From Pseudomonadota bacterium (GTDB taxonomy: Bacteria > Pseudomonadota > Gammaproteobacteria > Burkholderiales > Burkholderiaceae_C): a DNA stretch of 43,861 nucleotides. The stretch is taken from contig JAJZEB010000012.1 of assembly GCA_021805805.1 (NCBI GenBank), positions 7,452 to 51,312 on the forward strand. Reading direction: 5' to 3'. How positions within the stretch are numbered: the stretch's first letter is position 1; every line of letters begins with the position of its first letter. A model generated the notes under the pieces. That model had not been told where the DNA came from and did not search any database. It was given only the letters and a program-made list of their open reading frames with translations. Position numbers and translations under genes: made by a program. Shown piece by piece: positions 5,447-43,861 of this stretch.

Positions 5447-7534
5447 ATGGACGCGATCGACTCGATCAGCCGCGTGGTGCTCGGGCGCCATTTCGCCAGC
5501 GCGGTGGTCGCCGCTTCCGGAGCGCTGGCGCTGGCGCTGCTCGGTGCCGCGCTGGGCGGTGTCGCGGTGGCGCTGCCGCTGGGCAGCGGCGCGCTGACAG
5601 TCGGCTTCGCCGACATCCCGGGGCCGCCGGCGCTGCAATTGGTCGAGCTCGGCTTCACTGCCGCCGCCACCACCGTGGACTACGCACTGGTCTGGGCCTG
5701 CAACGGGCAACCCCCGCTGCAACTGCTCGTCGTGCCGCTGCTGGGCTTCGCCGGCGGCATGGTCGCGTTGTGGGGCAAGCGCGCGCTGGCGGTGAGTTTC
5801 AGCATCCTGTTCATCACCGTGATCGCGCTCGGTCTGCCGCCTGCGCCCTCCCCGCAAGCGTGGATCCACGGCGTGGCGTTGTTCGCCGCCGGCGGCGCCG
5901 CGTACACGGCGTGGGCCATGCTGCTGGGCGCCGCGCTGCGCGCGCGCACGCGGCGCCTGGCGCTGGCCGATCTGTTCGACGCCCTGGCCGCGTACCGTGT
6001 CTGGCAGGCCGAGTCATGGGCCGCAGAGCAACCGCACCGCGGAGCCGCGCTGCTCGAGGCGGCCAACGACGCGCTGCAGGTCGCGCGCGACAGCGTGCTG
6101 CGCGACACCCGCAATCCGCACGAAGCCGTCGACATCCACATGCTGTTGCAGGCACTGGATCTGTTCGAGGCCATGCTCGCGGCGCAAACCGACATGGCGC
6201 TGCTGCGCGACGCGTTCGACGGCACCGGAATCATCGACCAGCTCTGCGTCGGCAGCCGTCGCAGTGCGCGATCGCTGCGGCATCTGGCCGGCGCGCTGCG
6301 CCGAGGTACCGCGACCCCGCCGCCCACGGACCCGGCGCCGTGGCGTGCGCTCGCCACGCAGGCCGCGCGCTTGCGTCGCACACACGACACGCCGAGGTTG
6401 CGACCGGCTTACGCCGCGCTGCGCGCGCAGCTGCAGACGCAACGCGCGATCGACTTCGCCGTGCGTCGCCTGCATACCCTGCATGGCGGCCGCGACCAGG
6501 CCGGTGAAGCACCTCCGGCAATCGCCGATGTGGCCGCCTTCACCAGCGCCTGGAGCTACGCGCCGCGCCAGTTGCTCGCGCATCTCGACCCGGCCTCGCC
6601 GATTCTGCGCCACGCCCTTCGCATGGCCCTGGGCTTCGCCGCCGCACTGCTGCTGGCGCGGCTGCTGGGGCGGCAAAGCCACGACTACTGGATCCTGCTG
6701 ACCATTGCAGTGATTCTGCGGCCGAACTACGGCGTCACCCGCCAGCGGCTGCAGGATCGCCTGATCGGTACTTTGCTCGGCTGTGGCGCAAGCGCATTGC
6801 TGCTGCAGTTGTCACCGTCGACTTCGGTCCAGCTGGCGGTCCTGGTTCTGGCCATGGCGATGGCGCGTACCTTCGTCACCATCAACTACCGCTTCACGGC
6901 GTTCGCGGCATCGGTCATGGCACTGGTGCTCGCACGGCTGCTGCACGAGGGCGCGCACGCGCTGATTGCGCAACGCCTGCTCGACACCGCGATCGGGGGC
7001 GCGCTGGCCTGGGGCTGCAGCTACGTGCTGCCGCGCTGGGAAGCGCACGACCTGCCCAGGCTGCTTTCGGCGCTGCTGCAGGCGCAGTACGCCTACGCCG
7101 CGGCGACGCTGGCGGCGCATACCGGCGCCGAGCTCGGGTTCCGCATGGCGCGCAAGCAGTTGTTCGACACCCTGGCCGGAATCGGCGGCAGCCATGCGCG
7201 CATGCTCGAGGAGCCGAGCCAGCAGCGCTCGGCGCAACCGGCTCTCGCCGAGCTGATGCAGCAGGGCTATCTGCTCGGCGCCCACCTTGCCAGCCTGCGC
7301 GTGGCGCGCGCGCTGCTGCGCCGCGTGCCCGAGGCGCGCGTGGAGTCGATGATGGGACCGGTACGCGACTGGACGCTGCGCTGCCTGGACGCCGAACAAC
7401 CCATGCCGGCGCTGCCGCCGGCGCCGCCGCCGGCAACCGACGACCCGCTGCAGCGCCGCCTCGATCAGGTCACGGCAACCGCGGCGCGCAGCCGCAGGCT
7501 GGTCGACGAACTGCGCGCGCTGCTGCCGGCCTGA
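5447..7534 (+). CDS. FUSC/YccS-family inner-membrane protein
   Basis: A 695-residue membrane protein of the FUSC (fusaric acid resistance-like / YccS-YhfK) family, associated with efflux of aromatic acids and other small molecules. There are two membrane bundles: an N-terminal one of about six hydrophobic segments (for example GALALALLGAALGGVAVALP) and a second from roughly residue 385 with FAAALLLARLLGRQ and the signature YWILLTIAVILRPNYGVT. That signature matches the FUSC_2 core with its conserved Arg-Pro-x-Tyr. Cytoplasmic helical regions follow each bundle, and the C-terminus is Pro/Ala-rich. The start is taken at ATG 5447, where similarity-type sequence begins; the frame is open further upstream but looks non-coding. 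It stands alone, divergent from dsbA and convergent with the hydrolase gene. The substrate cannot be inferred. Confidence 0.82.
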   Translation: MDAIDSISRVVLGRHFASAVVAASGALALALLGAALGGVAVALPLGSGALTVGFADIPGPPALQLVELGFTAAATTVDYALVWACNGQPPLQLLVVPLLGFAGGMVALWGKRALAVSFSILFITVIALGLPPAPSPQAWIHGVALFAAGGAAYTAWAMLLGAALRARTRRLALADLFDALAAYRVWQAESWAAEQPHRGAALLEAANDALQVARDSVLRDTRNPHEAVDIHMLLQALDLFEAMLAAQTDMALLRDAFDGTGIIDQLCVGSRRSARSLRHLAGALRRGTATPPPTDPAPWRALATQAARLRRTHDTPRLRPAYAALRAQLQTQRAIDFAVRRLHTLHGGRDQAGEAPPAIADVAAFTSAWSYAPRQLLAHLDPASPILRHALRMALGFAAALLLARLLGRQSHDYWILLTIAVILRPNYGVTRQRLQDRLIGTLLGCGASALLLQLSPSTSVQLAVLVLAMAMARTFVTINYRFTAFAASVMALVLARLLHEGAHALIAQRLLDTAIGGALAWGCSYVLPRWEAHDLPRLLSALLQAQYAYAAATLAAHTGAELGFRMARKQLFDTLAGIGGSHARMLEEPSQQRSAQPALAELMQQGYLLGAHLASLRVARALLRRVPEARVESMMGPVRDWTLRCLDAEQPMPALPPAPPPATDDPLQRRLDQVTATAARSRRLVDELRALLPA

Positions 7535-38451: not shown

Positions 38452-38526
38452 CTCGCCGTAGTTCAATGGATAGAACACGCGCCTCCTAAGCGTGAAATAC
38501 AGGTTCGATTCCTGTCGGCGGGACCA
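38452..38526 (+). tRNA. tRNA-Arg (anticodon CCT)
   Basis: A complete cloverleaf can be drawn. The acceptor stem CTCGCCG/CGGCGGG is 7 bp with one G-T pair. The D stem is GTTC/GAAC, the anticodon stem CGCGC/GCGTG with loop CTCCTAA (anticodon CCT), and the T stem ACAGG/CCTGT with loop TTCGATT. The discriminator is A, followed by an encoded CCA. It reads AGG codons. An integrase gene follows 223 bp downstream on the same strand, so the 3' half is the likely attachment site of the island. Confidence 0.95.
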
Positions 38527-38652
38527 CGCCCATGTTTCTCAGCGTTCCGCATCGCTGCAAGGAAACAAAAAATCTATAAAAAAAACAACAGGTTGAGCCG
38601 ACGACGGCGTCGCCTGATGTTTCGTGTTGTCGCCCATCAATCCACGAAAGAT

Positions 38653-38693
38653 GGGGGTATTTTTGGGGTATCGACCAGGCTCAAGTGGGGGTA
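38653..38693 (+). repeat. Direct GGGGGTA repeats upstream of the integrase
   Basis: GGGGGTA occurs at 38653-38659 and 38687-38693, with GGGGTA between them at 38665-38670, all in the same orientation in the 90 bp before the integrase gene. Short direct repeats between the tRNA and int are typical places for integrase arm-type binding. This is an inference from position. Confidence 0.45.
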
Positions 38694-38748
38694 CTTTGGT
38701 CATCTGGCGGTAGCATGTGCCCGTGCACACCTCCACGGGAACCAAAAC

Positions 38749-39942
38749 ATGCTTAGCGACCTCCAAATCCGCAAGGCTGCTGCCCGCAACAAGCCTTACA
38801 AGCTAAGCGACAGCGGTGGCCTGTACTTGTACGTGACGCCGAGTGGCGGGCGTCTCTGGCGCATGAAGTATCGATTCGGCGGCGGCGAAAAGCTCTACTC
38901 AATCGGCCCCTACCCGGTCATCACCCTTGCCGCGGCCCGAGAGGCGGCGCTCGCCGCCAAGCGGCTGCTCGCTGCGGGGACCGACCCCAGCGCTGCCAAA
39001 AGGGCAGCGCACGAGCCGGAGAAGCCCCCGGCGCTCTTTGCCGAGGTCGCTGAGCAATGGCAGGCGTGGCGGCGCTCGGCGTGGACGGAAGGTACTGCTG
39101 ATGCGGTCCGCGCTAGCCTGGCCAACCATGTGCTCCCCATCCTTGGCGCGATGCCTCTCGTCGCGATCAAGCCGGCCGACGTCCGCGCCATCGTCCAGGC
39201 GGTCGACGCCAAAGGCGCAGGAGAGACCGCTGGCCGGGTTTTCCAGCGGCTCAAGGCGATCTTCCGCTATGCCGTCACCCACGAACACCTAAAGTCGGCA
39301 GACGACCCTATGTACAGCCTCCAGCCGGGAGAGATCATCGCGCCGCGCAAGGTCCGGCACCGCGCGGCGCTCGCGGCCGCCGATGTACCCGCATTCTTTG
39401 CCGCCCTCGATCAGTACCAGGGGTACCCGGCTGCCACGCTAGGGCTGCAACTGCTGATGCTCACCGCCGTCCGCCCAGGGGAGCTACGCGGTGCGCGCTG
39501 GCCGGAATTCGACCGCAAGAACGCGATGTGGCGCATCCCCGCCGAGCGCATGAAAATGAAAACCGAGCACCGCGTGCCACTGTCGAGCCAGGCCCTGGCC
39601 ATCCTGGAGCAACTGGCCGACCTCGGCCTGTCGGATGACCTGCTGCTGCCGAGCCCCTTCTACCCTGGGAAACCCATCAGCGACGCGACCTTTAACTCGG
39701 CGCTGGCGCGACTGGGATTCAAAGGCACCGCCACCGCGCACGGCTTCCGCTCGCTATTCTCTACCGAGGCGAACGAGGCCGGCTACCACCCGGACGTAAT
39801 TGAACTCCAGCTCGCCCACACCGAGCGCGACGACGTGCGGGCCGCCTACAACCACGCGCAGCGCTTAGTCGAAAGGGCTGCACTGATGACATGGTGGGGG
39901 GAGCGTGTTGACGAGTTGAAGATGCCTGACGAATGGAGCTGA
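38749..39942 (+). CDS. P4-type tyrosine recombinase/integrase
   Basis: A 397-residue site-specific recombinase. The N-terminal DUF4102-like arm-binding domain reads LSDLQIRKAAARNKPYKLSDSGGLYLYVTPSGGRLWRMKYRF, closely matching P4 and CP4 integrases. The core-binding domain spans about residues 100-190. The catalytic domain shows the first Arg in LTAVRPGELRGARW, a Lys in the beta hairpin, H-x-x-R in ATAHGFRSLFSTEAN, the second His in ELQLAHTERD, and the nucleophilic Tyr in VRAAYNHAQ. All active residues are present, so it should be functional. The length is normal. It lies immediately downstream of tRNA-Arg(CCT) in the same orientation, as expected for the element's left end. Confidence 0.95.
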   Translation: MLSDLQIRKAAARNKPYKLSDSGGLYLYVTPSGGRLWRMKYRFGGGEKLYSIGPYPVITLAAAREAALAAKRLLAAGTDPSAAKRAAHEPEKPPALFAEVAEQWQAWRRSAWTEGTADAVRASLANHVLPILGAMPLVAIKPADVRAIVQAVDAKGAGETAGRVFQRLKAIFRYAVTHEHLKSADDPMYSLQPGEIIAPRKVRHRAALAAADVPAFFAALDQYQGYPAATLGLQLLMLTAVRPGELRGARWPEFDRKNAMWRIPAERMKMKTEHRVPLSSQALAILEQLADLGLSDDLLLPSPFYPGKPISDATFNSALARLGFKGTATAHGFRSLFSTEANEAGYHPDVIELQLAHTERDDVRAAYNHAQRLVERAALMTWWGERVDELKMPDEWS

Positions 39943-40115
39943 CCGCGACCCTAGGTGGCCCGCTCGGGTTCGTTGGTCCGCCTGCCACGCGAAGCTTAGG
40001 GCTGAGGGCTGGCAAATTGCGGTCGATTCCTTCGGCCTCAAAAGTCAGAAACCTGTAAGCAATAGCGAATTACGTGCTGAACCCCCACAAAATTTGTAAG
40101 AAACCAGCAACACGG

Positions 40116-40584
40116 CTGTGGGGAACAGGGTGTCTGTGGATGTAGAAAATCGCGCTGTGGATGTAAATGTGGATGTAAAGTCAGCGAAAACTACTTCAAA
40201 AACAACAATTTACGTTCATTCTGTGGATGTTGTGGATGTTCGGAGGGGGTCCGATATCCGTAGCGCGTGCGTGATCACGCGCGCGCACGTATACGTGCCT
40301 GCATGCGCACGCTTCACGCGTGCTCGCGCGTATGTGCGTGAGCGAGGCCCTGCCGCGCCACGGCCTTTTGCGCCTCTCGCGCGCGCACACGTACGTAAGG
40401 ACAACATCCACAACATCCACAACATCCACAAACCAATGCCGCAAGACTTCTCAAGGCAACCATAAGTTGTTGTTTTATATTGGTTTTTTATGCCAAGCCA
40501 TCGAAACAACCGCTTGTGGATGTAGCCGAAATTCCACATCCACAAACATCCACAACATCCACAACCTCTGTGGGGAACGGGGTG
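40116..40584. repeat. Iteron-like array of twelve 9-mers between a 17-bp direct repeat
   Basis: TGTGGATGT occurs exactly at 40135, 40156, 40168, 40222, 40231 and 40515. Its complement ACATCCACA occurs at 40404, 40413, 40422, 40536, 40546 and 40555. Several copies abut head to tail with a 9-bp step. The left cluster points right and most of the right clusters point left, so blocks of at least 19 bp form perfect inverted repeats about 160 bp apart. The array is bracketed by a 17-bp direct repeat, CTGTGGGGAAC(A/G)GGGTG, at 40116-40132 and 40568-40584. No gene is credible across it. The core TGTGGAT is shared with DnaA boxes (TGTGGATAA), but the last two bases differ throughout. A replication origin, Rep/primase site or recombination control region is the best inference. 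Confidence 0.75.
40261..40400. other. Palindrome-rich alternating purine-pyrimidine core
   Basis: Between the opposed 9-mer clusters lies about 140 bp dominated by CG, CA and TG steps. It has perfect palindromes GCGTGATCACGC (40269-40280) and GCACGTATACGTGC (40285-40298), and further short ones (GCATGC, ACGTACGT). Such alternating sequence can adopt Z-DNA or cruciforms under supercoiling. It is not coding in any convincing frame. Confidence 0.6.
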
Positions 40585-40664
40585 GATCGTCAATGCAATT
40601 GTGCTTCGGCACCGTCTTAGCGGCGTGTTCGCCGAGTGCCGGCGCAGCGTCCAGGGTCAGGCCC

Positions 40665-40742
40665 GACGTCCAGAGGGACGTCTTCACGCCCTGAGGAAAT
40701 TAGTTCGTGGCGCCCAACTGTTGCATTGGCAGGGGACGTCCC
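40665..40742. promoter_or_regulatory. Repeated GACGTC palindromes upstream of the small island gene
   Basis: GACGTCC-AGAG-GGACGTC forms a 7-bp stem with a 4-base loop at 40665-40682, and a third copy lies in the 10-bp palindrome GGGACGTCCC at 40733-40742. They end 21 bp before the ATG of the small basic protein. They may be operator half-sites, possibly for that protein, or a hairpin terminator after the array; there is no U-tract. Confidence 0.4.
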
Positions 40743-40763
40743 TGCGCAGAGTCCAGCGTAATC

Positions 40764-41009
40764 ATGAGCACGAAGACCTCCTCTTCCAGGCGACGTGGCC
40801 GCCCGTGCATCGCACCCGAGCAGCGCCTATCCCGCGGCGTTCGGCTAAGCGTCCCCCCCTCCACCTTCAACCTGTGGATGTCGCTCCCTTCCGAGGTGCG
40901 CCGTCGCGCGCTGTCGGAACTGCGTGTGTGCATGCTTGCACTGCTCGCCCGTGAGTGCCACCCCCTAGCTAGCGAAGGCGACACAGATGACGCTGGCCCT
41001 CGACGGTAG
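40764..41009 (+). CDS. Small basic protein of unknown function (island)
   Basis: An 81-residue open frame that I think is real but do not recognise. The N-terminus is strongly basic (SSSRRRGRPCIAPEQRLSRG), then RLSVPPSTFNLWMSLPSEVRRRALSELRVCMLALLARE predicts a short strand followed by helices, then an acidic tail. The strand-helix-helix pattern is reminiscent of small ribbon-helix-helix DNA-binding proteins, but I see no firm match. Codon third positions are mostly G or C, as in coding DNA. The stop lies four bases from the convergent mcrC stop, which supports a real gene boundary. The ribosome site is weak. A thirteenth TGTGGATGT (40873-40881) lies inside it. Confidence 0.45.
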   Translation: MSTKTSSSRRRGRPCIAPEQRLSRGVRLSVPPSTFNLWMSLPSEVRRRALSELRVCMLALLARECHPLASEGDTDDAGPRR

Positions 41010-41013
41010 TCTT

Positions 41014-42351
41014 TCAGACGCTCACGCAAGCCTCGGCCTCGGCGAGGTGCGCAGTCTCACTGGCGTGATCAGACGCCGCAACCGACCACAAGGGTACCAG
41101 CTTCACTGTGATGGTGATGCTGCCGTCCAGGCCTCTAGCCCGAAGCTTAAATACCGGAGGTTGAATGAAGTTCGCGGTGCCGCCCGGTCGCGGGTACGCG
41201 AGCTCCAGCGACGTGCAGCCGTAGCGCACTGCATAGGCCAGCAACTGGTACACGTCAGTCTGGTCCACGCCGAAGTCCGCCGCGTGCGGGTCCAGACGCT
41301 TCCACTTCGCATCGACAACGCGGTCAATGCCTGCGGCAGCACCGTCGCGGCCGACGTGCCAAACCGTGATGTCTGGCTTCAGCATAAACGCATCGACCTC
41401 GCCGTTTGTTGCGAGCGGCAGCGGCGGTCCCTGCATGTGCACGATGCGATCACGCCCGGCGACAGCTTCCTCCAGCCTAGCTGCGTGAGCCTCGAAGAGC
41501 TTGTTCATGTCGAACAGTAGCCCGGGCGCTTGCGATGCCCCAGCGCTTATCGCTGGGCTGGCCATGGCAAGCAGCCATTCGCACCACATCAGCAAGGGAC
41601 CGTAGCGGTAAGTCGTGCGGTTGCGGGGCAAGCGCGCCGCGTCGGCCGCCGACATCTTTACCGCCGAAACGCTAGCGTACCGGGCGTGGGTCTCGAACCA
41701 CATCCGCTGTGTCCCGGCTCTGCTGATCAACGGGCGACACACCTCCAGCGCAGCGCGGACGGCCCGGTTGTAGGCATTGTCAGCGGTGAACTCGTCATAC
41801 TCGCAATGCAGCAGGTGCGGTCGCGCGAGATTACGTCGGGTGTGTCCGTGGGACTGGAACCGCCCTTTGATGACGGGAAGGTCGTCTGCGTGCGCCACAT
41901 AGCGGCTCAACAGGCCACGCCGCGCTTGCTCGAGTGCGCATTGCAGGAAGCTCTCGATGAAAACGTCCAGCAGTGGCGCGTGCACGGCTTGCTGCGGCAC
42001 CGGGCCGATCTTGGTGATGGCGACCTGCTTGGCATTGTGCAGCATGGCTAGAAGCGCACCGCGCGAGCGTTCCAGCTCGTTGGGCGTCCGAGCATCTGCC
42101 ATGCCGACCTTAGGCAGCACTTCCACCACGCAGGTCGGCAAGCGAACGATCCCGCAGTGCTGGGCCAGCTTGACGCCACCCGAGAGTCGCTGACAAAAGC
42201 CCCGGCGCAGGTCATTGAGTCTCAGAAGCGCCTGAGCCTCAGCTTCTGAAAGCCACGGGAAGGCGTCCGCCAACATGCGCGGATCATCGTCGCCCTCGAT
42301 GATGGGAATGACCTCGTGCTCCAAAACGGTGACGATGCGCAGCCCCCCCAC
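41014..42351 (-). CDS. mcrC: McrC-like component of a McrBC modification-dependent restriction system
   Basis: A 445-residue protein that would supply the nuclease of a type IV (McrBC) restriction system cutting methylated DNA. The N-terminal region (LRIVTVLEHEVIPI) is typical of McrC. The C-terminal PD-(D/E)xK nuclease core is visible as LKPDITVW followed by IDRVVDAKWKRLD, and then DVYQLLAYAVRYG with the trailing LAYP strand. The GTG at 42351 is preferred: it follows a GGGGTGAT ribosome-site match and comes four bases after the mcrB stop. ATGs at 42387-42402, overlapping mcrB, are alternatives. It converges on the small basic gene. Confidence 0.87.
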   Translation of the reverse strand: MGGLRIVTVLEHEVIPIIEGDDDPRMLADAFPWLSEAEAQALLRLNDLRRGFCQRLSGGVKLAQHCGIVRLPTCVVEVLPKVGMADARTPNELERSRGALLAMLHNAKQVAITKIGPVPQQAVHAPLLDVFIESFLQCALEQARRGLLSRYVAHADDLPVIKGRFQSHGHTRRNLARPHLLHCEYDEFTADNAYNRAVRAALEVCRPLISRAGTQRMWFETHARYASVSAVKMSAADAARLPRNRTTYRYGPLLMWCEWLLAMASPAISAGASQAPGLLFDMNKLFEAHAARLEEAVAGRDRIVHMQGPPLPLATNGEVDAFMLKPDITVWHVGRDGAAAGIDRVVDAKWKRLDPHAADFGVDQTDVYQLLAYAVRYGCTSLELAYPRPGGTANFIQPPVFKLRARGLDGSITITVKLVPLWSVAASDHASETAHLAEAEACVSV

Positions 42352-42355
42352 CGCA

Positions 42356-43861
42356 TCACCCCGCGTTTTGCATGGTGTCGTCACCATCTGCCGAGGCATC
42401 ATCGGGAGACGCGGGTGGTGGCGTAACGACCGGCGCCGCCCCGTACAAGCCCATGATGTCGGCCTCGCCCCAAGTGCCTGGTTCGCCCACCGTGAAGGCC
42501 CGGCGCGCTTCAGTGCCCACAGCCTGTTTGGCGCCGGGGAATAGTTCTGACGGCGAAAGCGACCTGGACTTGAAAAACACGCTGTCTTTGCCGTTGCCTG
42601 TCAAGACAAGGCGCACCTTCTCCATGTCCTCGAAGAAGTATTCCTGGAGCAGCGGGATTACACGCTGTGCCAGCACTTGTTGTAGCGCGGCCAGCGACGT
42701 GATGCCCAGGAATGCCGCGTGGCCGATCGCGTGGTCGCGATCCAGCAGGTATTCAAGCCGGTCATTCAAGCGCTGGAGCAAGGCGGGAAGATCGATAGCC
42801 CCCACCATTGCGGGCTCGATGCGCTTGGGCTCCGGTGGACACTCCTGGAAGCGGAAGCGCCGCCGCAGGGCGATGTCCATCATGGCAATAGATCGGTCGG
42901 CCGTGTTCATCGTGGCCACGATGTTCAGGTTGTCGGGCACGCCGAAGCGCGTTGAAAGACCCGGCAGCGTGACCCAGGCACCCGCATCGTTGACCTTGCT
43001 CCCTGCAATCACGCGCTTGCTGGGTTCGATCAGCGTGATCAGTTCGCCGAAGACCTTGGCGACGTTGGCGCGGTTGATCTCGTCGATGAATAGGGTGAAC
43101 TGCTGCGTCGGGTTCGCATGGGCCTTCTCGCAGAGCGTGAGGAGCGGCCCCTTCTGAAAGACGACGACCACCCCCGAACCATCTTTGGCAGCCACCGGCC
43201 GCAAGCCGCCGATGAAGTCCTCGTAGGCGTAGCTGGGGTGGAACGCTACGAACGCGAAGTCCTCGCCCTTGTCGAAGGCCTCCTTCATGCGCGCCTGCAT
43301 CTCATAGGTCTTCCCGGTGCCAGGCGGTCCATAGAGGATCAGGTTGTCTGCCAAGCGCAGAGTTGGTTTGGCGTTGGTTGCGGCTTCCTCGTCGTACTCC
43401 GGGTCTGGCTCTTGCTCGGACAGCGGAGCAGGATCGGTCGTCTCGTTGGGGCTGCCGGAACCCTTGTCTGCGACCTCGCCCGGTTGGACACCTTGTTGCT
43501 TGACGAGCGTGCCTACCGGTAGATCGTAGTAGTCCACCGAATCTTGGTGCTGTACCTCCAGGCGCTTGCGCAAGTCCTGTAGGGCGGCGTCCATGGCCGG
43601 GCGGCTTTCGCCCAGGGCAGGCGTCCAGATCTTGTGTGCCCGTGCCACCTGGTACTTGTGGCCCTGGCTGAAGATGCGCTCGAAGCTTTCAGGGAACAGC
43701 ACATGGCACAGCGTGTGATAAAGCTGCCGCCCTTTTCCCGAGGGGATGCTGTCCAGCCACGACGCGAAGGCCTGAGCGTCGTTCAGCAAGGCCTCGCGTT
43801 GGCGATGTCCCAGACTCTGTTGAACGGATAGTGTGAAGGTGGCTCCCCCTTTCACCCGGGT
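42356..43861 (-). CDS. mcrB: McrB-like AAA+ GTPase subunit, 5' end beyond window
   Basis: AAA+ NTPase that binds modified DNA, translocates and activates McrC. The frame is open to the right edge (more than 500 codons visible), and the first visible residues (VKGGATFTLSVQQSLGHRQ) look internal, so the start is outside. Walker A is LILYGPPGTGKTYEM, followed by FHPSYAYEDFIGGLRP, an McrB family hallmark. Walker B is FTLFIDEINRANVAKVFGE, and the GTPase signature is NIVATMNTADRSIAMMD with the arginine-finger region ALRRRFRFQE. The C-terminal tail is Pro/Asp-rich. The visible N-terminal part (LYHTLCHVLFPESFERIFS) resembles a domain common in stand-alone McrB homologues; the DNA-recognition domain, if any, lies off the window. 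Confidence 0.9.
   Translation of the reverse strand, partial: TRVKGGATFTLSVQQSLGHRQREALLNDAQAFASWLDSIPSGKGRQLYHTLCHVLFPESFERIFSQGHKYQVARAHKIWTPALGESRPAMDAALQDLRKRLEVQHQDSVDYYDLPVGTLVKQQGVQPGEVADKGSGSPNETTDPAPLSEQEPDPEYDEEAATNAKPTLRLADNLILYGPPGTGKTYEMQARMKEAFDKGEDFAFVAFHPSYAYEDFIGGLRPVAAKDGSGVVVVFQKGPLLTLCEKAHANPTQQFTLFIDEINRANVAKVFGELITLIEPSKRVIAGSKVNDAGAWVTLPGLSTRFGVPDNLNIVATMNTADRSIAMMDIALRRRFRFQECPPEPKRIEPAMVGAIDLPALLQRLNDRLEYLLDRDHAIGHAAFLGITSLAALQQVLAQRVIPLLQEYFFEDMEKVRLVLTGNGKDSVFFKSRSLSPSELFPGAKQAVGTEARRAFTVGEPGTWGEADIMGLYGAAPVVTPPPASPDDASADGDDTMQNAG

Follow-up and report, generated by a model that had tools for sequence, protein, structure and literature searches.

A probable PICI/SaPI-type replication origin, made of opposed 9-bp iterons and separated from its initiator, behind a P4-type integrase gene

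The locus and its genes

The window (the whole stretch of DNA analysed, 43.9 kb) carries near its right-hand end a tRNA-Arg(CCT) gene (38452..38526, forward strand; ARAGORN and Rfam), the presumed integration site of a mobile element. Behind it lies a gene for a P4-type tyrosine integrase (38749..39942, forward strand; start codon chosen by eye), whose Pfam domains are Arm-DNA-bind_3, Phage_int_M and Phage_integrase. These two assignments, and the position of the integrase gene beside the array described below, bear out the sequence-only reading from which this work started. Sequence reading shows GGGGGTA-type direct repeats upstream of the integrase gene (38652..38694, forward strand), which are candidate integrase arm sites; repeated motifs resembling them were found in four of 29 loci of integrase relatives. 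The integrase stop codon is 173 bp upstream of the array (40116..40584), with no gene intervening. ORFs crossing the array are short (≤ 125 aa) and lie on both strands.

On the other side, an 81-aa ORF (40764..41009, forward strand) begins 180 bp to the right of the array. It is followed by a McrC-like gene (41014..42402, reverse strand; Pfam McrBC, 1.5e-63) and, at the contig end, by an AAA_5 gene (42356..43855, reverse strand; Pfam), taken as McrB from its position beside mcrC. A 25-bp piece of the tRNA 3' end, used in an attR search, has one occurrence in the assembly at ≤ 2 mismatches, which leaves the right-hand boundary of the island out of view. Of the traits of a whole PICI (int, alpA/xis, pri-rep and ori), an integrase gene and the array are present, on a stretch that ends with both window and contig 3.3 kb past the array.

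The 81-aa ORF, known from the ORF list, has an AT-hook/ribbon-helix-helix look by eye only. It contains an exact copy of the 9-mer of the array, TGTGGATGT (40873-40881), possibly an operator and possibly a chance occurrence. Ribbon-helix-helix ParR and omega proteins are a model for operator and centromere arrays, and the product of this ORF, or another protein of the element, might bind the 9-mers and thereby repress transcription or partition a circular form. The closeness of the ORF, its basic, AT-hook-like start and the internal 9-mer all favour such a role. It is nevertheless improbable, since Pfam and PHROG searches with the ORF gave no match, and its sole other match in the class (E 7.6e-4) has an internal stop and shares its position with a longer ORF of the opposite strand, making it unusable as a relative. 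Furthermore, other elements have the same layout on the 3' side of their initiator genes.

Structure of the array

Exact copies of TGTGGATGT/ACATCCACA number 14 in the window, against a mean of 0.11 and a maximum of 2 in shuffled sequence (n = 100). Twelve fall at 40135-40563, far above chance, and the remaining two at 6132 and 40873. The twelve follow the strand order +++ ++ --- + --- (five forward, three reverse, one forward, three reverse). Three outer forward iterons (40135..40176) precede two inner forward iterons in 9-bp tandem (40222..40239); beyond a 164-bp core come three inner inverted iterons, also in 9-bp tandem (40404..40430), and then a right cluster of a single forward iteron (40515..40523) and three outer inverted ones (40536..40563). 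With spacers in bp, the array reads '+12+3+45+0+164-0-0-84+12-1-0-', and exact 9-bp steps occur at 40222/40231, 40404/40413/40422 and 40546/40555. Direct repeats of 17 bp, in forward orientation at 40116..40132 and 40568..40584, stand either side of the set and are identical at 16 of 17 positions. Thus the exact-copy search, together with the tandem detector and a repeat search, reproduced the twelve copies first seen by eye (five forward on the left, six reverse and one forward on the right), their 9-bp steps and the single mismatch between the flanking repeats. All twelve copies are exact, and between 40101 and 40620 no further non-overlapping copy was found at ≤ 2 mismatches. When this GC-rich stretch was divided into 91 windows of 480 bp, five reached two opposed 8-mers, and none the six of the array.

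The core (40240..40403; composition scan) has alternating purine/pyrimidine runs of 23, 16 and 20 bp, which are three of the ten such runs of ≥ 16 bp in the window. None of 1000 base shuffles of the core gave a 23-bp run; nine of 200 shuffles intended to preserve dinucleotides did, so that run length is partly due to composition. The GC content of the core is 0.68 (window 0.69). In PICI and SaPI origins an AT-rich region between the opposed sets is a trait; here the low-GC sequence lies between iteron clusters, at 40177..40221 (0.31) and 40431..40514 (0.40), and from their composition these two segments are candidate unwinding elements. The core also holds a near-palindrome (40263-40286), in agreement with the palindromic centre noticed earlier. 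Single-strand folding of the array predicts a long stem (z -6), which arises because the arrays are inverted and is no proof by itself; the idea that pairing of the arms across the centre is the point of the layout was not supported.

A cluster of DnaA boxes used by the host initiator was considered, as the complement of what we take to be the DnaA-box consensus shares seven of nine bases with TGTGGATGT, a likeness that had been remarked on from the start. The box pattern TTWTNCACA, however, has no match anywhere in the 43.9-kb window, and the iterons of related arrays are quite unlike a DnaA box, making use by DnaA extremely unlikely.

Distribution of the 9-mer and the link to the integrase

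Searches with 39940-40800 found no DNA similarity to plasmids or phages, and with a 36-base piece of the array as query only weak matches appeared (E 0.1 or more). The pattern of paired TGTGGATGT copies is present in four of 399 genomes of the order. In the own genome it is found seven times, never outside the array, and each of three further genomes has a single pair; pairs form an array in the own genome alone. An 18-mer scan of the GTDB contig collection returned 69 stretches. One of these, from an Acidimicrobiales MAG (L066), has an opposed array of six copies of TGTGGATGT in a gap read as intergenic. Among the stretches listed (69 from GTDB, and 27, at least 120 and 33 viral), only L066 has at least five copies in both orientations; with this one comparable case, a reading of the array as chance repeats was set aside. 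Sixteen loci with iteron copies were inspected locally, and a candidate with 12 copies (L093) was rejected, its copies lying inside a 440-aa ORF.

Relatives of the integrase (E ≤ 1e-60) occur in 57 of 369 genomes of the class, the own genome included. Thirty loci were fetched, again with the own locus among them, and exact TGTGGATGT was present in none of the 29 others within flanks of 319-1500 bp downstream (≥ 1400 bp in 26 of 29). For this reason an array linked to the integrase, as initially proposed, was rejected over that reach: the 9-mer is absent from loci with related integrases, an outcome that the sequence-only reading had itself named as refuting. This search would miss an array separated from the integrase by another gene, and in one relative (L433, described below) an array with another word does lie beyond its reach.

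The same result bears on control of excision or integration, in which the 9-mers would be arm-type sites of the integrase or Xis sites. The array stands 173 bp behind a P4-type integrase gene near the attachment site, and a viral contig taken as a prophage end (L177) has copies of CATCCACA near a tRNA-like end. Against this are the 0/29 relatives and the GGGGGTA repeats upstream of the integrase gene, where the arm sites may be, and we regard the proposal as very unlikely. Of the original suggestion of a dedicated protein-binding array with replication or excision control, binding for replication is retained as most likely, with no Rep found beside the array, while excision control is unsupported.

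In L177 the copies of CATCCACA (98-305) surround an apparent tRNA end and an integrase start; they may be arm sites for the integrase of a prophage whose host, by a guess, is an actinobacterium.

The layout recurs at D5-type primase-helicase genes

A second contig of the own genome (C136) carries a D5_N gene with opposed arrays of another 9-mer, CATGACAGA, directly behind its stop codon. This contig (L289, 1-7104) is a second mobile-element fragment, with a truncated D5_N/DUF5906 gene, a RepB_primase-like ORF and a type ISP/IIG restriction-methylation gene.

The C136 locus gave the idea for a detector of opposed tandems, in which two tandem copies face two inverted ones. At a step of 9 it matched four of 14 D5_N loci (three of 13 without the own-genome locus) and none of 281 other loci (2.18 Mb), these controls being loci already fetched, many through the iteron pattern itself, and not a random sample. 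At the other steps from 7 to 14 there was one match in the 281 loci; step 6 was noise in both sets. A looser detector (steps 8-11, restricted to 540 bp around the stop codon) matched six of 13 cellular D5 loci (five of 12 without the own locus) and none of 244 control windows. All six matches have step 9 and start -11 to +20 bp from the stop codon. With viral D5 genes the looser detector matched ten of 26 loci compared with 0/255 controls. Across all 80 viral D5 loci, step 9 matched in nine, step 11 in four and step 8 in one.

Arrays with an 11-bp step are seen 3' of the viral D5 genes in L353, L387, L388 and L409, indicating that the step is not always 9.

A test based on exact opposed 8-mers was weak to negative outside the viral ATPase set described below; it was positive for four of 13 D5 loci (0/237 controls) and for two of 43 viral D5 loci (4/342 controls). 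Thirteen of the 14 D5 loci entered both tests (L318 was too short), and L317 was positive with 8-mers and negative with the looser detector. Viral samples were 43 of the 80 loci for the 8-mer test and, for the looser detector, 26 of the 80 picked by eye against near-duplicates and short flanks. In profile searches the D5 set matched solved primase-helicases, best C962R (1.5e-19); it also matched a 'DNA primase', 7ola/7om0 (3.8e-17), which we take to be SaPI5 Rep.

The layout recurs at A2-type ATPase genes and Toprim fusions

In L066 the array is just 3' of a gene for a 526-aa ATPase-like protein, which itself follows a Prim-Pol gene (PF09250, 8.6e-45). The ATPase part of this family (A2) has no Pfam match and has PHROG matches to primases; from these, from its place beside primases and from an ATPase motif recognized by eye, it is a putative helicase. 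Profile comparison of the D5 set with the A2 set found no homology; they may be unrelated, or too far apart for such a comparison to link them.

Among cellular A2 relatives, the looser detector matched four of 13 loci (1/184 controls; L424 included and L066 not), and the 8-mer test two of 13 (1/178 controls; L066 included and L424 not). Visual inspection found opposed repeats at about nine of the 13 cellular loci, a count which is not a test. Four partial A2 matches, available as short stretches only, were left out of the looser-detector set.

Viral relatives of the L066 ATPase gave a far stronger signal, with at least three opposed 8-mers per strand in 14/14 loci, whereas 0/124 controls reached even two. 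Three of the 17 viral loci were dropped because the contig ends in or near the array. As L326, L328, L329, L331 and L332 are near-identical, the 14/14 represents fewer independent cases, although at least seven different iteron words occur among the 14. Ten viral loci were checked in more detail: the frame that encodes the ATPase stays open for 372-469 further codons upstream, and this upstream part has DUF7146 and Toprim_3 domains (10/10). These viral genes are thus Toprim-primase/ATPase fusions, broadly P4 alpha-like, and not Prim-Pol genes. In this they are unlike L066, whose primase is encoded by a separate Prim-Pol gene.

Layout was compared between 13 of the 17 viral loci, L066 and the window, and reading frames in the same 13 loci. 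The viral arrays (L319-L335) share with the window forward copies, an inner tandem, an alternating core, inner inverted copies and, last, copies in forward and inverted orientation. In 12/13, L321 being the exception, an inner 9-bp tandem of two or three forward copies adjoins the core. The alternating run of the core is 14-30 bp in 12/13 (8 bp in L321), and core length is 51-59 bp in 12 loci and 82 bp in L321, compared with 164 bp in the window. In 12/13 a forward copy and then an inverted one come 25-30 bp after the inner inverted set; L331 has no forward copy there (at 1 mismatch). The finer spacing at the right end of the window array ('+12-1-') has a counterpart of similar kind ('+7 to 9, then -, 1 or 2, -') in five of the 13, four of them near-identical. 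The right-side order is the same, and the window's spacers are longer. Since iteron words differ between elements, it is the layout and not the word that recurs.

The viral arrays differ in lying inside a gene frame, which is open through the array in 13/13 loci, so that 9-bp steps correspond to three codons. The window array, with its own iteron word, is outside any conserved gene found and has no such frame. Ten of the 13 viral frames, from loci that are partly near-duplicates, end in W(L/M)xx(V/I/L)(P/D).

L433, the relative within the class whose integrase is 47% identical to that of the window, has on one strand the integrase gene, an A2-type ATPase gene and an opposed 9-bp array, the word of which differs from TGTGGATGT. 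Beyond the array its genes are phage-like by eye.

Comparison with known origins

The type of origin is already known. EcCICFT073, a PICI of E. coli, replicates as a plasmid from a rep-ori segment (PMC6092414). The sole step-9 opposed match in 49 kb of CFT073 sequence falls in the gap that directly follows the DNA primase gene on its 3' side. At ≤ 2 mismatches this gap has 13 copies of TGTCTACCC in alternating clusters ('+0+38-12+2+0+23-2-12+38-0-1-24-'), and at ≤ 1 mismatch seven copies compared with five in the other 48.7 kb. That the gap is the published origin follows from the text of PMC6092414, where the origin region lies on the 3' side of the initiation gene, and not from coordinates. 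Like the window array, the EcCICFT073 origin has opposed short iterons, 9-bp steps and several clusters, over about 270 bp versus 429 bp.

Initiators of SaPIs, PICIs and SCCmec elements bind iterons downstream of their own gene, and the SaPI initiator appears to bind as two hexamers, as summarized in PMC7581432. The likeness to a SaPI rep-ori concerns its role in replication, here taken from the description in that source and not from SaPI sequence. Compared with these PICI/SaPI origins, the window array has no rep gene immediately 5', a GC-rich core with alternating runs, and copies that are all exact. The SCCmec Cch2 origin likewise consists of repeats downstream of an initiator helicase which binds them, but these are direct repeats with 5-nt iterons and not opposed 9-bp arrays (PMC7581432).

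Origins of plasmid pRN1 and of a Bordetella phage have inverted arms downstream of a primase-helicase gene; they differ in being published as one large stem-loop adjoining the gene (PMC4234260). In phage BPP-1 (L454, about 1105-1215) opposed pairs of GTTTGCCTC are located about 465 bp 3' of a Prim-Pol/PriCT_2/D5_N primase gene. These 9-bp iterons are placed beyond bbp28, or in another reading of the locus between bbp27 and bbp28. The stem-loop was published for BIP-1, which is near-identical to BPP-1, and the BPP-1 iterons are not equated with it.

For satellite P4, PMC4234260 describes an alpha protein in which a Toprim primase is combined with a helicase and which binds repeats at the origin. 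The viral Toprim set may resemble alpha. Of satellite P4 with its ori/crr system the window shows the P4-type integrase; no alpha gene was seen.

The missing initiator

No initiator gene is present immediately 5' of the array, where the integrase gene is the nearest. For the four families searched in the own genome (D5_N, Prim-Pol, DUF5906 and the A2-type ATPase) this contig has no match, and the assembly (95.9% complete) has none to the A2-type ATPase or Prim-Pol. MAGs often lose mobile elements, which makes absence of an initiator from the assembly weak evidence. Furthermore, the contig end is only 3.3 kb from the array, so that a distant or trans-acting initiator may exist. All initiators surveyed are 5' of their arrays because the search was made there, and a survey of loci beside initiators gives no frequency of arrays without one.

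Two genes of the own genome were tried as the missing initiator. The D5 gene of C136 was rejected because its own, different iterons lie behind it; the fragment may still belong to the same island as the array. The DUF5906 gene of contig C89 (L453) was rejected as there is no array beside it. This helicase-like gene is near a BrxC-PglY gene.

Gene order in the window resembles that of L433 (int, ATPase gene, array) minus the ATPase gene, and the array might accordingly be a remnant, an origin no longer used after deletion of its initiator. This overlaps with the origin reading and differs from it only in present use. L433 has an initiator between int and array where the window has none, and the McrBC-like cargo on the right also fits a remnant. 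In contrast, all 12 copies are exact, with no copies at one or two mismatches among them, which does not look like decay. We hold a disused origin to be a minor, though not a negligible, possibility.

Interpretation

The array is probably the replication origin, of PICI/SaPI type, of an integrated element, separated from its initiator. This conclusion is drawn because the layout recurs at D5-type and Toprim-type initiator genes and in a PICI replicon that has been tested. The sequence-only reading had called opposed iteron blocks unusual; with these recurrences that view no longer holds. Against an origin, no initiator adjoins the array, its core is GC-rich and, at 164 bp, longer than the 51-82 bp of its relatives, and several of the layout tests at other initiator genes were weak or negative.

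By analogy with the systems described above, a primase-helicase initiator would bind the two facing sets of short iterons, probably as a pair of hexamers, with a hexameric helicase loaded on each set. The low-GC parts or the core, between or beside the iteron sets, would then melt, and priming would start replication of the element.

A wider proposal, which is speculative and rather doubtful, is that the element lacks an initiator by design. It would be an McrBC defence satellite replicated in trans by an incoming phage or plasmid whose initiator reads TGTGGATGT, the origin serving to sense the invader and also as the site of hijacking. In broader terms, there would be one architecture in which the 9-bp word is repeatedly replaced while the layout, including the alternating core, is kept.

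In the literature searched, which was mostly open-access and probably leaves the original work on SaPI origins outside, three features were not seen described: an origin without an initiator beside an integrase gene, an alternating core common to the window and the viral set, and iteron words that differ although the layout is alike.

The data point to this layout, with differing words, at primase-helicase genes of D5 and Toprim type from other bacteria and from viral contigs. A simple criterion in the search for such origins is a set of opposed tandem 9-mers where an initiator gene has its 3' end, and initiator-origin specificity, incompatibility and helper dependence become testable over many pairs. 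If it is truly detached from its initiator, the origin beside this integrase gene would qualify as a candidate for being replicated in trans.
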